Below are positions 3,215-19,112 of a DNA stretch of 64,000 nucleotides, piece by piece (position 1 is the first letter of the stretch; each line of letters starts with the position of its first letter). The DNA is taken from NCBI RefSeq assembly GCF_032116555.1, contig NZ_CP134949.1, forward strand, positions 1,488,001 through 1,552,000. The letters are read 5' to 3'. The DNA comes from Halobaculum sp. XH14 (GTDB taxonomy: Archaea; Halobacteriota; Halobacteria; Halobacteriales; Haloferacaceae). The translations under genes and the position numbers were made by a program. Under the pieces are notes generated by a model. The model was not told the DNA's origin and searched no databases. It worked only from the letters and a program-made list of their open reading frames with translations.

Positions 3215-4546
3215 ATGGTACGTGATATCGACCGTCGTGACGTGCTGAAGAGCGTCGGAGGCGCTGGCGTCGTCGGCCTCGCCGGCTGTATTACCCAGGA
3301 CGGAAACGGCGGGGACGCGACCCCGACCGAAGGGGACGCCGGCGACGGTGACACGGACGGCGACGCCGAAACCGACACGCCGGAGGACTCGGGCGGCGAG
3401 TCCCGCACCATCAACCACGGCGTGCTGATGCCGGTCACGGGCGACCTCGCGTCGCTCGGCGGCCCGATCCGTGACGGCGCGATCCTCCCGGCGGCGGTGC
3501 TGGAGGACGCGGACATTCCGGTCACGATCGAGCTTCAGGAGGAGGACACCCAGACAGACCCGCAGGCTGGCGTTCAGGCGGCGAGTTCGTTCGCCAGCGC
3601 GGGGACGCCATCCGTCACCGGCGCGGCGTCCTCGGCGGTGAGCCTCCAGGTGTACCAGCAGACGTTCATCCCGAACGGCATCGTCGGCTGTTCGCCGGCC
3701 TCGACGTCCCCGGCGATCACCGACCTCGACGACGACGACCTGATCTACCGGACCTGCCCCTCGGACGCGCTCCAGGGTGAGGTCATGGCACAGGTCGCGA
3801 CCGAGGAGCTCGGCGACTCCTCGGCGTCGGTGCTGTTCCTGAACAACGACTACGGCCAGGCGCTGAAGGACTCGTTCGTCAGCGCGTACGAGAGCGGCGA
3901 CGGTTCGGTTCAGTCCGAGGTCGCCTTCGAACCCGAGCAGTCCTCGTACTCGTCGCCGCTCTCGGAGGTCATGAGCGGCGACCCGTCGCTGCTGGTCGTC
4001 ATCGGCTACCCGGCGTCCGGGATCCAGATCTTCCGTGACTTCTACGCCGACTACGGTACCGAGACCAACATCATGGTCACGGACGGCCTCCGCGACTCGA
4101 CGCTCCCCGACGAGGTCGGCAACGACATGGCGAACGTCTACGGGACGGCCCCGCTCGCGCAGGGCCCCGGCCAGGAGGCGTTCGTCGAGCAGTACGAGAG
4201 CGAGTACGACCGTGCGCCGGGCGTGTTCAACGCCCAGGCGTACGACGCGACCGCCGTCTGCCTGCTCGCCAACGCGGCGGCCGGCGAGAACGACGGCAAC
4301 GCGATCAAGGAGCAGCTGAGGGCCGTGGCGAACCCGAACGACGGGACGGAGATCACCGCCGCGAACCTCGCGGAGGGGATCCGGCTGGCCGCCGAGGGCG
4401 AAGCCGTCTACTACACCGGCGCGTCCTCGAGCGTCGACTTCGACGAGAACGGCGACATGACCGCCGTGACCTACGAGTACTTCCAGTACAACACGGACGT
4501 CGAGAACAACATCGAGACGGTCAGCACGATCGACTTCCAGGCGTAA
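3215..4546 (+). CDS. ABC transporter substrate-binding lipoprotein (LivK type)
   Basis: A 443-residue secreted binding protein of the branched-chain amino acid/urea type (periplasmic-binding family 6). A twin-arginine signal (RRDVLK at residues 7-12) and a lipobox LAGC ending at Cys25 predict Tat export and lipid anchoring outside the membrane. An acidic Gly/Asp/Thr linker follows. The mature domain starts near GVLMPVTGDLASLG and includes LFLNNDYGQAL, a usual ligand-pocket region. No permease or ATPase genes lie beside it, which is unusual for this class; partners must be elsewhere. Start 3215 is chosen because of the TATA box 27 bases upstream and the signal-peptide layout. The ligand cannot be named. 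Confidence 0.85.
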   Translation: MVRDIDRRDVLKSVGGAGVVGLAGCITQDGNGGDATPTEGDAGDGDTDGDAETDTPEDSGGESRTINHGVLMPVTGDLASLGGPIRDGAILPAAVLEDADIPVTIELQEEDTQTDPQAGVQAASSFASAGTPSVTGAASSAVSLQVYQQTFIPNGIVGCSPASTSPAITDLDDDDLIYRTCPSDALQGEVMAQVATEELGDSSASVLFLNNDYGQALKDSFVSAYESGDGSVQSEVAFEPEQSSYSSPLSEVMSGDPSLLVVIGYPASGIQIFRDFYADYGTETNIMVTDGLRDSTLPDEVGNDMANVYGTAPLAQGPGQEAFVEQYESEYDRAPGVFNAQAYDATAVCLLANAAAGENDGNAIKEQLRAVANPNDGTEITAANLAEGIRLAAEGEAVYYTGASSSVDFDENGDMTAVTYEYFQYNTDVENNIETVSTIDFQA

Positions 4547-4773
4547 CTCCACCCGCGATCCGAATTTTTCGCCGACCGCCGACACGGGCTCTCACCGTCG
4601 AGCGGCGCGTACGCGCGCCGACCACCCGCGCTCGGCCGTGCCTCGCTCCGTCGATGCGATCTGTGGTCCCCTGGTTCCGTTGCTGGCCTCGTGTCCGTCG
4701 TTCACGGGCTCGTACCGGCAATCGCGCTCGCTACCCTGGGGTTTACGCCCCGGTACTCGTACCCACCCACGAG

Positions 4774-15174: not shown

Positions 15175-15183
15175 CTTATAAAT
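15175..15183. promoter_or_regulatory. shared TATA region between Bat-type regulator and nuoCD
   Basis: The sequence TTATAAATGG in the context GCGCTTATAAATGGCC is near-palindromic and lies in the 89-base divergent gap. It is at leaderless distance from the regulator start at 15146 on the minus strand and about 55 bases from the nuoCD start. Confidence 0.45.
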
Positions 15184-15235
15184 GGCCTCATCGACGCGGC
15201 GAAACGGACTGGTCGCCCACGGCGAACGTACACCC

Positions 15236-16921
15236 ATGAGCACGCAGTCGACGCGGCACGACGAGCGTTCGACCGACGGGGCGCTCGCGGAACAGACGCC
15301 GGACGAACTCGCGGCCCTGCTGGGCGAGCACGTCATCGGGCGGGAGGAGCATCTGAACGCGCCGGGCTACGTCGTGCGGCCCGACGAGGTGCAGGACGTG
15401 CTCTCGGCGCTCCGCACGGAGGCCGGTTTCGACCACCTCTCGTGTGTGACCGCCCAGGAGTACGAGGACCGGTTCGAGTCGATCTATCACCTGAAGAAGT
15501 ACGACGACCCGACCCAGGAGGTCAGCGTCGTCGTCCCGACCGACCGTGAACGCCCCGTCTCTCAATCCGGCGAGGCGGTGTTCCGCACCGCGGACTGGCA
15601 CGAGCGGGAGGCGTACGACCTCGTCGGCATCGAGTACGACGACCACCCCGACCTCCGCCGCATCCTGCTCCCCGAAACCTGGCAGGGACATCCCCTGTCC
15701 GCCGACTACGACCAGAACCGACCGCAGGTCGTCACCCACGCCGAGAACGTGAACCCGCTCCGGGAGGACACGCCCGGCGAGGGCTCCGCCGACGCGGACA
15801 CGATGTTGATCAACATCGGCCCCCACCACCCCGCGACCCACGGCGTGCTTCACCTGGAGACGACGCTCGACGGCGAACAGGTCGTGGACGTCGACCCCGA
15901 CATCGGCTACATCCACCGCTGTGAGGAGCAGATGTGCCAGAACGGCACCTACCGCCACCAGATCATGCCCTACCCCGACCGCTGGGACTGGGGCGGGGCG
16001 GGCCTGCTGAACGAGTGGGCGTACGCGCGGGTCGCCGAGGATCTCGCCGACATCGAGGTGCCCGAGTACGCGCAGGTGATCCGGACGATGGCGGCTGAGC
16101 TCTCGCGGATCCTCTCGCACATGCTCGCGGTCGGCGCGTACGCGCTGGACGTCATCGGCGACTTCACGGCGACGTTCATGTACGCCATCCGCGACCGCGA
16201 ACGGGTCCAGGACGTTCTGGAGGACCTGACCGGCCAGCGGCTCATGTTCAACTACTTCCGGCTCGGCGGCGTCGCCTGGGACCTCCCCGAGCCCCGCGAG
16301 GAGTTCATCGAGAAGGTCCGCTCGCTGGTGAACGACCTGCCCCGGAAGCTCGCCGAGTACCACGACCTGCTGTCGGCCAACGAGATCATCCAGCTTCGAA
16401 CCGTGGACACCGGCGTGCTGCCGGCCGAGGTCGCGAAGAGCTACGGTTGCACCGGTCCTGTCGCTCGCGGTTCGGGCGTCGACTACGACCTCCGGCGGGA
16501 CGACCCGTACGGCTACTACGACGAACTCGACTGGGACGTCGTCACCGAGGACGGCTGTGACAACTACGCCAGACTGCTCGTTCGCATGCGCGAACTCGAG
16601 GAGTCCGCGAAGATCATCGAACAGTGCGTCGACCTCCTCGAGGACTGGCCCGACGACGAGCGGACGGTCCAGGCGAACGTTCCCCGGACGCTGAAGCCGG
16701 CGGACGACACCGAGGTGTACCGCGCGGTCGAGGGCGCGAAGGGCGAACTCGGCATCTACATCAGATCGGACGGCACGGACGAGCCGGCCCGATTCAAGAT
16801 CCGCGGTCCCTCGTTCTCGAACCTCCAGGCGCTCCCGGAGATGGCCGAGGGCGAGTACGTGCCCGACATGATCGCCTCGCTCGGGAGTCTCGACACGATC
16901 ATGGGGGAAGTGGACCGCTGA
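15236..16921 (+). CDS. nuoCD: NADH dehydrogenase-like complex subunit CD
   Basis: A 561-residue fusion of complex I subunits C (about 35-160, with REAYDLVGIEYDDHPDLRRIL) and D (from about 188, LINIGPHHPATHGVLHLE). The D part keeps the quinone-site HPATHG and the closing IMGEVDR. In haloarchaea this fused subunit normally sits in a long nuo operon (A, B, CD, H, I, J, K, L, M, N), passing electrons to menaquinone. Here it stands alone between a Bat-type regulator and biotin transport genes. It is therefore either a second paralogue or a relocated subunit. The 22 bases covering its last codons and stop are repeated just downstream. Confidence 0.9.
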   Translation: MSTQSTRHDERSTDGALAEQTPDELAALLGEHVIGREEHLNAPGYVVRPDEVQDVLSALRTEAGFDHLSCVTAQEYEDRFESIYHLKKYDDPTQEVSVVVPTDRERPVSQSGEAVFRTADWHEREAYDLVGIEYDDHPDLRRILLPETWQGHPLSADYDQNRPQVVTHAENVNPLREDTPGEGSADADTMLINIGPHHPATHGVLHLETTLDGEQVVDVDPDIGYIHRCEEQMCQNGTYRHQIMPYPDRWDWGGAGLLNEWAYARVAEDLADIEVPEYAQVIRTMAAELSRILSHMLAVGAYALDVIGDFTATFMYAIRDRERVQDVLEDLTGQRLMFNYFRLGGVAWDLPEPREEFIEKVRSLVNDLPRKLAEYHDLLSANEIIQLRTVDTGVLPAEVAKSYGCTGPVARGSGVDYDLRRDDPYGYYDELDWDVVTEDGCDNYARLLVRMRELEESAKIIEQCVDLLEDWPDDERTVQANVPRTLKPADDTEVYRAVEGAKGELGIYIRSDGTDEPARFKIRGPSFSNLQALPEMAEGEYVPDMIASLGSLDTIMGEVDR

Positions 16922-17056: not shown

Positions 17057-17086
17057 CGTAAACCATTACTTGTGCGTCGGTTTACG
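17057..17086. promoter_or_regulatory. BirA-type biotin operator before bioY
   Basis: The inverted repeat CGTAAACC (17057-17064) and GGTTTACG (17079-17086), separated by 14 bases, is 8 bases before the bioY start codon. Published BirA sites have half-sites of the form TTGTnAACC and GGTTnACAA with a spacer of about 14-16. The match in arms, spacing and gene context supports biotin-repressed control by a BirA with a DNA-binding domain. Confidence 0.75.
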
Positions 17087-17094
17087 GACGCTCG

Positions 17095-17676
17095 ATGAGC
17101 ACTGACACTCGGCAGGTCGATCTCGTCGGCGACGCGGTCGTCGGCAACCTCGCCCGCGCGGCGCTGTTCGCCGCGCTCACGGGCGTCTTCGCGTACGTCT
17201 CGTTCCAGCTTCCGGTGACGTCGGTGCCGTTCACGCTGCAGGTGCTCGGCGTCTTCCTCGCGGGCGCGTTCCTCGGGCCCGTCTGGGGCGGGGCGTCGAT
17301 GCTGCTGTACCTGCTGGCGGGCGTCGTGGGCGCGCCGGTGTTCGCCTACGGCGCCGCGGGCGTCGGCGTCCTGTTCGGCCAGTGGGGCGGCTACCTCTGG
17401 TCGTACCCGTTCGCGGCGGCGGTCGTCGGCCTCGCCACCCACGGCGCGGGCGACCTTCGCGACCCCGGTGACGTCGGCCTCGCGCGACTCGTCGGTGGCA
17501 TGGTCGCCGCGACGCTCGTCGTCTACGCGTTCGGCACGGTCGGCTACGCCGTCGTCGGGAACGTCGGCCTCGTGGCCGCGCTGCTGGCCGCGGCGGTCCC
17601 GTTCGTGCCCGCCGAACTCCTGAAGATGGCTGCGGCCGTCGCGCTCGTGCGCAGCGACGACGTCGTGGCGCGGTAG
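17095..17676 (+). CDS. bioY: biotin ECF transporter S component BioY
   Basis: A 193-residue membrane protein with about six helices that binds biotin as the specificity (S) unit of an energy-coupling factor transporter. The BioY hallmarks are present: FQLPVTSVPFTLQVLGVFLAG near residues 38-60, then GGASMLLYLLAGVVGAPVFA and FGQWGGYLWSYPFAA. It is the first gene of a three-gene operon with the ATPase nine bases downstream and the T component overlapping that. A BirA-type operator precedes it. Start ATG 17095 follows the operator closely, consistent with a very short leader. Confidence 0.95.
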   Translation: MSTDTRQVDLVGDAVVGNLARAALFAALTGVFAYVSFQLPVTSVPFTLQVLGVFLAGAFLGPVWGGASMLLYLLAGVVGAPVFAYGAAGVGVLFGQWGGYLWSYPFAAAVVGLATHGAGDLRDPGDVGLARLVGGMVAATLVVYAFGTVGYAVVGNVGLVAALLAAAVPFVPAELLKMAAAVALVRSDDVVAR

Positions 17677-17685
17677 GTCCGCCGG

Positions 17686-18387
17686 ATGATCTCGGTCCGC
17701 GGGCTGGCTCACCGGTACGACGACGCGGTGGCCCTGGAGGAGGTCTCGCTGTCGATTCCTGACGGGGAGTTCCTCGTCCTCGCCGGGGCGAACGGCTCGG
17801 GGAAGACGACGCTCGTGCGCCACTTCAACGGCCTGCTGACGCCCGACGAGGGCGAGGTCGTCGTCGACGGCACGCCCGTCGCGGACGACGTCGTCGCCGC
17901 CCGGGCGGCGGTCGGGATGGTGTTCCAGGACCCCCGCGACTCGTTCGTCGCGGCGACGGTCGGCGCCGACGTCGCGTTCGGACCCGAGAACCTCGGTCTC
18001 CCGCGCGAGGAGATCGACGCCCGCGTCGCCGACGCGCTCGACGCGGTGGGGATGGCCGGCCGGCGGGACGAGCGGATCGACCGGCTCTCGGGCGGCGAGC
18101 GCGAGCGGGTGGCCGTCGCTGGCGCGCTGGCGATGGAGCCGAACCACCTCGTGCTCGACGAGCCGTTCACGGGCCTCGACGAACCGGCGAGGCGATCGCT
18201 CCGCCGGCACCTCGCGGAACTCCACGCGGCCGGCACCAGCGTCGTCGTCGTCACCCACGACCTCCGGGACGTGTTCGAGCGTGCGGACCGGGTCGTCGTC
18301 CTCGCGGACGGTCGCGTGGCGCTGGACGGATCGCCCGCGGAGACGCGGGAGGAACTCCACTCGCTCGGCGTCCGGCCCCCGGACTGA
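17686..18387 (+). CDS. bioM: biotin ECF transporter ATPase BioM
   Basis: A 233-residue ABC ATPase that drives biotin uptake with BioN and BioY. Walker A is GANGSGKTT (34-42), the Q-loop is FQDPRDS, the signature is LSGGERERVAVAGAL and Walker B is HLVLDEPFTGLD, followed by the switch histidine in VVVVTHD. The FQDPRDSFVAATVGADVAFGPEN segment is typical of ECF-type (CbiO-like) ATPases. Its ATG lies nine bases after bioY and its stop codon overlaps the bioN start by one base, so the genes are cotranscribed. Confidence 0.93.
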   Translation: MISVRGLAHRYDDAVALEEVSLSIPDGEFLVLAGANGSGKTTLVRHFNGLLTPDEGEVVVDGTPVADDVVAARAAVGMVFQDPRDSFVAATVGADVAFGPENLGLPREEIDARVADALDAVGMAGRRDERIDRLSGGERERVAVAGALAMEPNHLVLDEPFTGLDEPARRSLRRHLAELHAAGTSVVVVTHDLRDVFERADRVVVLADGRVALDGSPAETREELHSLGVRPPD

Positions 18388-19112
18388 TGCTCGCGTACGC
18401 TCCCGGTGACACCCTCCTCCACCGGCTCGACCCCCGGACGAAGCTCGCCGTCCAGGTCGCGTTCGTCGCCGCGGCGTTCGCCCACACGACCCCCACGGGA
18501 TTGCTGGCGCTCACGCTCGTCGCGCTCGGCGTCCTCGCGCTCGCGGGCCTCGGTCCCGGGCGAGCCCTCCGGGAGTTCCGCGTCGTCGCGCCGTTCCTCC
18601 TCGCCGCGCCGCTGCTCGAAGCGGCGCGGCTCGGGTCGCCCTGGTTCGTCGCGGCCGACGCGGTCGCCCCCGCGATGGCGAGCTATCGGACGCTCCTGCT
18701 GCTCGCGCTCGCGCTGGCGTACGTCCGAACCACGCCCGTCCGCGAGTCCGAGGCGGCAGTCGCCCGGGTGCTTCCGGGGCGTGTCGGCAGACTGGCCGCG
18801 CTGGGCGTCGGACTGGTGTTCCGGTTCCTGCCGCTGCTGCAGGCGGACGTGGCCCGTGCACGTGCGGCCAGTCGGGCGCGCCTGGGCACCGAACGGCCGC
18901 TGCGGGACCGGATCCGACTCGTCGCGACGGCGGGGCTCGGGCGGGCGCTCGGCCGCGCGGACCGGCTCGCGGTCGCGCTCCGTGCGCGCTGTCTCTCCTG
19001 GGAACCGACGCCGCCGGCGCTCGCGGCCGGGCGGGCCGACCTGGTCGGCGGCGCGGTCTCGCTGGTACTCCTCGTCTGGGCGCTCGCACCCGTTTTCGGG
19101 GCGGTGCCGTAG
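18387..19112 (+). CDS. bioN: biotin ECF transporter T component BioN
   Basis: A 241-residue membrane protein of the CbiQ/EcfT family that couples BioM to BioY. The N-terminal YAPGDTLLHRLDPRTKLAVQV is the family signature, and the coupling-helix region holds RARAASRARLG and ALRARCLSWE (the A-R-A/R-A-R motifs). Four or five membrane helices surround them. The start codon shares one base with the bioM stop. It closes the bioYMN operon. Confidence 0.93.
   Translation: MLAYAPGDTLLHRLDPRTKLAVQVAFVAAAFAHTTPTGLLALTLVALGVLALAGLGPGRALREFRVVAPFLLAAPLLEAARLGSPWFVAADAVAPAMASYRTLLLLALALAYVRTTPVRESEAAVARVLPGRVGRLAALGVGLVFRFLPLLQADVARARAASRARLGTERPLRDRIRLVATAGLGRALGRADRLAVALRARCLSWEPTPPALAAGRADLVGGAVSLVLLVWALAPVFGAVP

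Follow-up and report, generated by a model that had tools for sequence, protein, structure and literature searches.

A probable BirA operator in front of the biotin importer genes bioYMN and its conservation across Halobacteria

Introduction

The locus described here raises the question whether the perfect inverted repeat in front of the biotin importer genes bioYMN of Halobaculum sp. XH14 is a chance palindrome or the target of a regulator and, in the latter case, of which one. Sequence comparison makes it very probable that the biotin sensor BirA docks at the repeat. We regard it as highly probable that the repeat represents an operator of a Group II BirA, with biotinyl-5'-AMP-BirA repressing bioYMN at high biotin.

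Results

The bioYMN operon and the repeat upstream of bioY

The relevant features of the window, i.e., the whole stretch of 64,000 nucleotides that was analysed, are the following:

17057..17064, + strand: left half-site CGTAAACC of the proposed BirA operator, with a core identical to the published BirA consensus
17065..17078, + strand: operator spacer of 14 bases, with a putative TATA region in its A/T-richer start
17065-17071, + strand: putative TATA region ATTACTT, -30 to -24 from the bioY ATG, proposed from comparison with relatives
17079..17086, + strand: right half-site GGTTTACG of the proposed BirA operator, from the sequence and the genome word search
17095..17676, + strand: bioY, biotin-binding subunit of the importer (PF02632, E 1.5e-35)
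17686..18387, + strand: bioM, ATPase of the importer (PF00005, E 9.6e-31)
18387..19112, + strand: bioN, CbiQ-like transmembrane subunit (PF02361, E 6.6e-11)

BioY, an ATPase and a CbiQ-like subunit are thus encoded in one operon, which is the composition of a BioYMN ECF biotin importer. A gap of 9 bases separates bioY from bioM, and bioM and bioN overlap by 1 base. The best NCBIfam match of bioM is an ECF ATPase, with a score under the cut-off of that model. A 579-residue frame located just upstream of bioY (15182-16921) resembles, by eye, a fused NADH dehydrogenase C/D.

A preliminary description of this DNA had reported that an inverted repeat, perfect over 8 bases and with a spacer of 14, lies just before bioY, and that its half-sites correspond to the BirA consensus. 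Both statements hold. Positions 17057-17086 read CGTAAACC ATTACTTGTGCGTC GGTTTACG; the pairing stops at 8 bases without further extension, and 8 bases lie between the repeat and the ATG of bioY (17095). The published consensus is TTGTAAACC-[N14/15]-GGTTTACAA (PMC545781, in part). All 14 core positions of the half-sites GTAAACC and GGTTTAC (with N at the third place) match it, and the 14-base spacer fits N14/15. The window lacks the outer TT/AA that the bacterial consensus has (TTC-GTAAACC, GGTTTAC-GGA), and the bases that flank the half-sites across the class are mostly C and G (88% and 97%, 43 loci). The position upstream of genes for biotin transport or synthesis is likewise that of a BirA operator, with bioY in the window and bioB at 18 loci elsewhere.

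A chance origin of the repeat would be in line with the frequency of such structures, because perfect 8-base repeats occur five times in the window (GC content 69%) when the spacer is set to 14 bases, and 81 times when it may range from 5 to 25 bases. Palindromy by itself was therefore rejected as evidence. The rarity of the operator word in window and genome speaks against chance. With up to 3 mismatches it has one match in the window, compared to an expectation of 0.08 from shuffled sequences, and at least one match was found in 7 of 100 shuffled windows. Moreover, 17057-17086 is the only exact match within the 3,678,577 bases of the genome. The search for further copies in the same genome, which the preliminary description had proposed, accordingly returned no second one: three other places deviate by exactly 3 mismatches, but the backwards control with up to 3 mismatches yields two, and second operator sites in Halobaculum sp. 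XH14 were rejected.

Conservation of the operator at bioY

Our comparison of 80 haloarchaeal bioY loci, the best 80 of 477, revealed a BirA-like palindrome near the bioY start with a score of at least 11 of 12.5 in 73 of them. Among 1600 control windows from the same 80 loci, seven of which scored 0, this score was reached once, and a score of at least 10 was reached 43 times. Conservation at precisely this place argues strongly against a chance palindrome, which we consider practically negligible as an explanation. The loci below 11 are L076 (10.5), L139 (10), L079, L101, L102, L103 (9.5 each) and L146 (9). By eye, a decayed site is present close to the usual place at L076, L079, L102 and L139, while neither the scan nor inspection by eye recognised a bioY operator at L101, L103 and L146.

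At the genome level, BioY is present in 277 of the 292 genomes of the class. The exact pattern GTNAACC-N13-16-GGTTNAC occurs anywhere in the genome in 224 of the 292, and its backwards control in 64 (hand count); for 220 genomes with an exact match, this match lies somewhere in the genome and not necessarily at bioY. Two genomes (G078, G088) with neither BirA nor BioY also contain pattern matches, thereby providing a measure of chance matches. Where BioY is present but an exact match is missing (56 genomes), the region upstream of bioY scores at least 11 in 51 cases, 10-10.5 in three and below 10 in two (G123, G173). The locus and genome counts are not independent, because the two sets have members in common, as seen from the identical BirA coordinates of G062 and the L076 genome.

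BirA of Halobaculum sp. XH14 and its distribution

The genome (G000) contains two PF03099 matches, one of which is a BirA of 322 residues (P0001). A BirA with an N-terminal helix-turn-helix (HTH) domain, the presence of which the preliminary description had put forward for checking, is thus encoded: in the genome profile search, a single open frame matched both HTH_11, with E 3.6e-11, and the biotin ligase domain, with E 6.9e-17. HTH_11 covers residues 18-59, the ligase domain 87-213 and the C-terminal domain 271-316. The architecture is that of a Group II BirA, with a winged HTH (PF08279, 18-59, 41.9 bits, cut-off 25) followed by ligase and C-terminal domains (PF03099, PF02237 and TIGR00121, all above their cut-offs). 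Residues 10-314 match bifunctional BirA models, and the protein aligns with solved ligase/repressor BirAs, e.g., with 8f8u and 1bia, where the alignments begin at residues 12 and 14. Its score against the repressor-domain model TIGR00122 (52.8 bits) is below the cut-off of 70. The start codon of birA overlaps the stop codon of a uspA-like gene, named by eye (L003, 1675-1679, minus strand), and the genome-wide word search found no exact operator word at the birA start.

The repeat might alternatively be the conserved operator of another HTH regulator that controls biotin genes, given that HTH_11-type matches are numerous in the genome (27 places at E <=0.01). The best of these matches is BirA itself, however, the word corresponds to the BirA consensus, and genomes whose BirA lacks the HTH also lack the operator. 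We accordingly give this alternative a very slim probability.

The co-occurrence of BirA and BioY was investigated by searching BirA in all 292 genomes (72 + 220). It is present in 279, namely, in 59 of the 72 (a weak HTH-type match in G268 was left out) and in all 220 of the others. BirA and BioY are jointly present in 277 genomes and jointly absent in 13, e.g., G001, G007, G049, G068 and G139, which suggests the existence of haloarchaea that do without biotin. BirA thus accompanies each of the 277 BioYs, and only two of the 15 genomes without BioY (G107, G130) have kept it. The BirA match starts at or before residue 13 in 277 of the 279 genomes. The two deviating starts, at residues 62 and 64, belong to G123 and G173, both from genus g17, and the frame upstream of the match encodes no HTH in either of them. 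They are the only two of the 292 genomes with an HTH-less BirA, and the bioY operator is absent from both. Fisher's test on the counts 54/0/0/2 gives p = 6e-4 for two genomes that are relatives, and the joint absence of HTH and operator probably reflects one event, since both belong to the same genus. The genome of L146 likewise combines a BirA without HTH with a bioY without operator.

Two loci do not follow this pattern. At L101 the HTH of BirA is intact and no bioY operator is recognisable; the same holds for L103, whose BirA, located at a contig end, is a fragment that includes the HTH. The BirA of L139 is truncated within the HTH by a contig end. The region upstream of bioY at L101 (Halorientalis marina, bioY locus 4001-4576) still contains the BRE/TATA-like sequence CCGAAGCGTTGAAC. 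The preliminary reading of the repeat as a BirA operator is supported by the HTH-bearing BirA, the consensus half-sites, the class-wide conservation at bioY and the bioB sites described below, and it gains further support from the missing site where BirA has lost its HTH.

In some genomes, the regulatory BirA is accompanied by an additional biotin ligase match that lacks the HTH region and starts at residues 76-93. They comprise members of genus g24 (G003, G012, G023, G034, G066, G093, G126, G234, G245) as well as G080, G228 and G302. Across the prokaryotic tree including archaea, BirA proteins that have the N-terminal domain are intermixed with those that lack it (PMC3199775, in part).

The recognition helix of BirA and the left half-site

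The recognition helix was compared in 30 genomes and additionally in G138, G183 and the genome of L079. A Lys follows AVW or AIW in 28 of the 30, all of which have a left half-site ending in CC. G062 and G145 carry Asn and a left half-site GTAAAGT or GTAAAGC, and Asn is also found in G138, G183 and the genome of L079, with the left half-sites GTAAAGT, GTAAACT and GTAAAGT, respectively. The CC of the left half-site is damaged in five of five Asn genomes vs none of 28 Lys genomes, in a sample whose half-sites are biased to imperfect ones because 29 of the 30 genomes were chosen for lacking an exact match. As a weaker lead, the exchange of Lys to Asn thus appears to accompany the damage of the left CC. 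The pairing may reflect one event, given that the Asn genomes look closely related. Speaking against a simple contact rule, 18 of the 28 Lys genomes have an altered mirror place in the right half-site. The helix was read without the corresponding bioY site for G087, G108 and G222. The Asn-type helix SRAAVWN occurs at L177, L178, L258, L273, L274 and L275, i.e., in the BirA of genus g9 and its relatives, and the bioY sites available for this group have a damaged left half-site (GTAAAGT, GTAAAGC or GTAAACT).

Promoter geometry at bioY and bioB

The position table is based on 43 non-redundant loci out of 70 bioY loci with a score of at least 11 and a spacer of 14 bases. It shows that the spacer is not neutral: a purine/A-rich stretch follows the left half-site, and positions 7-11 contain a T-T-n-A-W element (T 62%, T 86%, A 81%, A/T 97%). 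The distance between operator and ATG is 15 bases in 39 of the 70 loci and 14 in 12 more, and where it is 15, the most frequent value, the T-T-n-A-W element falls at -30 to -26. The promoters of haloarchaea are described as consisting of a BRE (CGAAA) and a TATA element (TTWT), and 72% of the protein-coding transcripts of Haloferax volcanii as leaderless (PMC4983044, in part). The position of the element together with the reported motifs therefore suggests that the bioY half-sites bracket BRE and TATA and that the bioY mRNA would start near-leaderless.

The window and the sequences most closely related to it deviate from this geometry: the few available sequences show an operator-ATG gap of 9-10 bases and no T-T-n-A-W element at its usual spacer position. 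Instead, an A/T-richer stretch lies 5-6 bases closer to the left half-site, with an about unchanged distance to the ATG. In this lineage, the TATA region seems to have stayed fixed relative to the ATG, and the operator seems to have slid 5-6 bases downstream.

In other genomes, the operator word is also found on the start of bioB, at 18 loci. The identity of bioB is documented by TIGR00433 (E <=2e-100) for L046, L062, L156 and L158, and by a cysteine motif in the downstream frame for the remaining loci. One example is G130, which harbors a bioB site and a BirA with HTH but no BioY. A T-rich, TATA-like stretch (e.g., CTTTAT) lies upstream of the operator at the bioB loci, and the right half-site reads on from the presumed GTG start (GTG GTT TAC) in 17 of the 18; the frame of L046 reads ATG GTT AAC. 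The bioB operator would hence cover the inferred transcription start, and its right half would specify the first residues of the protein. Among 20 second-site stretches, picked among the matches listed, nine belong to bioB, two to bioY and nine to neither, and eight further loci that were inspected comprise two bioB, two bioY and four neither, where "neither" denotes the lack of a biotin gene beside the site as judged by eye from the frames. The nine of 20 stretches without an adjacent biotin gene were rejected as members of the regulon. A perfect GTAAACC-N15-GGTTTAC is present at 1501-1529 of L059 (G256), far from bioY and without a recognised biotin gene adjacent to it.

These arrangements bear on a further alternative, namely, that the site binds BirA but activates transcription, or that it serves as a leader RNA element. 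Activation would be compatible with the sequence evidence. The bioB operator, by contrast, lies over the presumed start site and the start codon, a position that would suit a repressor. The bioY operator surrounds the TATA region and ends ahead of the inferred start, so that it would not be transcribed. We thus assign activation or a leader RNA element a slim probability.

Repression by BirA at bioY would follow the analogy of E. coli and B. subtilis, whose BirA binds the operator as a dimer with biotin and ATP (PMC4016012, in part). When biotin is plentiful and the carrier proteins are already biotinylated, BirA would retain biotinyl-5'-AMP, dimerise and occupy both half-sites that flank BRE and TATA of bioY. 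The bound protein would exclude TBP/TFB or RNA polymerase, and the importer would be switched off; scarce biotin would leave the operator free and allow its production. Bracketing of BRE and TATA implies that BirA would compete with TBP/TFB at bioY, and the location on the start site that it would block the polymerase at bioB. We lean slightly towards the view that one repressor and one operator word are used in these two placements on near-leaderless archaeal promoters.

Discussion

BirA operators are a kind of regulatory site that is already known, because the title of the 2002 study of Rodionov, Mironov and Gelfand already names the BirA signal of both Eubacteria and Archaea, and the haloarchaeal bioYMN site is a further case. 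The same study is said to describe a correlation between HTH presence and sites, with bioY as a member of the regulon. In the partial literature searched, none of the titles and abstract beginnings pointed to experiments on haloarchaeal BirA or on the regulation of bioY.

The BirAs of E. coli and B. subtilis share the bifunctional ligase/repressor architecture with the haloarchaeal protein, but they act on bacterial promoters, and the sequence and spacing of their operators vary between the two (PMC4016012, in part). They are known from biochemistry, whereas the haloarchaeal BirA is described here from its sequence. Corynebacterium glutamicum has the same three-gene biotin importer, which is induced by biotin limitation; in contrast to our locus, the available part of the source discusses the TetR-type regulator BioQ with another motif for such genomes, and no BirA operator (PMC3398298). 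The putative biotin transporter BioYMN of the haloarchaeon Natrialba magadii exhibits the identical gene order, and a regulatory site is not described in the available part of its report (PMC3403918).

The system links, throughout a whole class, a metabolite-sensing repressor of the bacterial type with the basal promoter of archaea, which is eukaryote-like, and the natural loss of the DNA-binding domain serves as a control. As a test system in tractable haloarchaea, it provides a single operator word, a single HTH and two placements on the promoter. Compared with the BirA biotin regulon of bacteria and archaea, the haloarchaeal version has the same consensus half-sites, spacer, HTH-bearing BirA and biotin-gene targets, but it differs in the archaeal BRE/TATA promoter, the class-wide distribution and the natural loss of the HTH.
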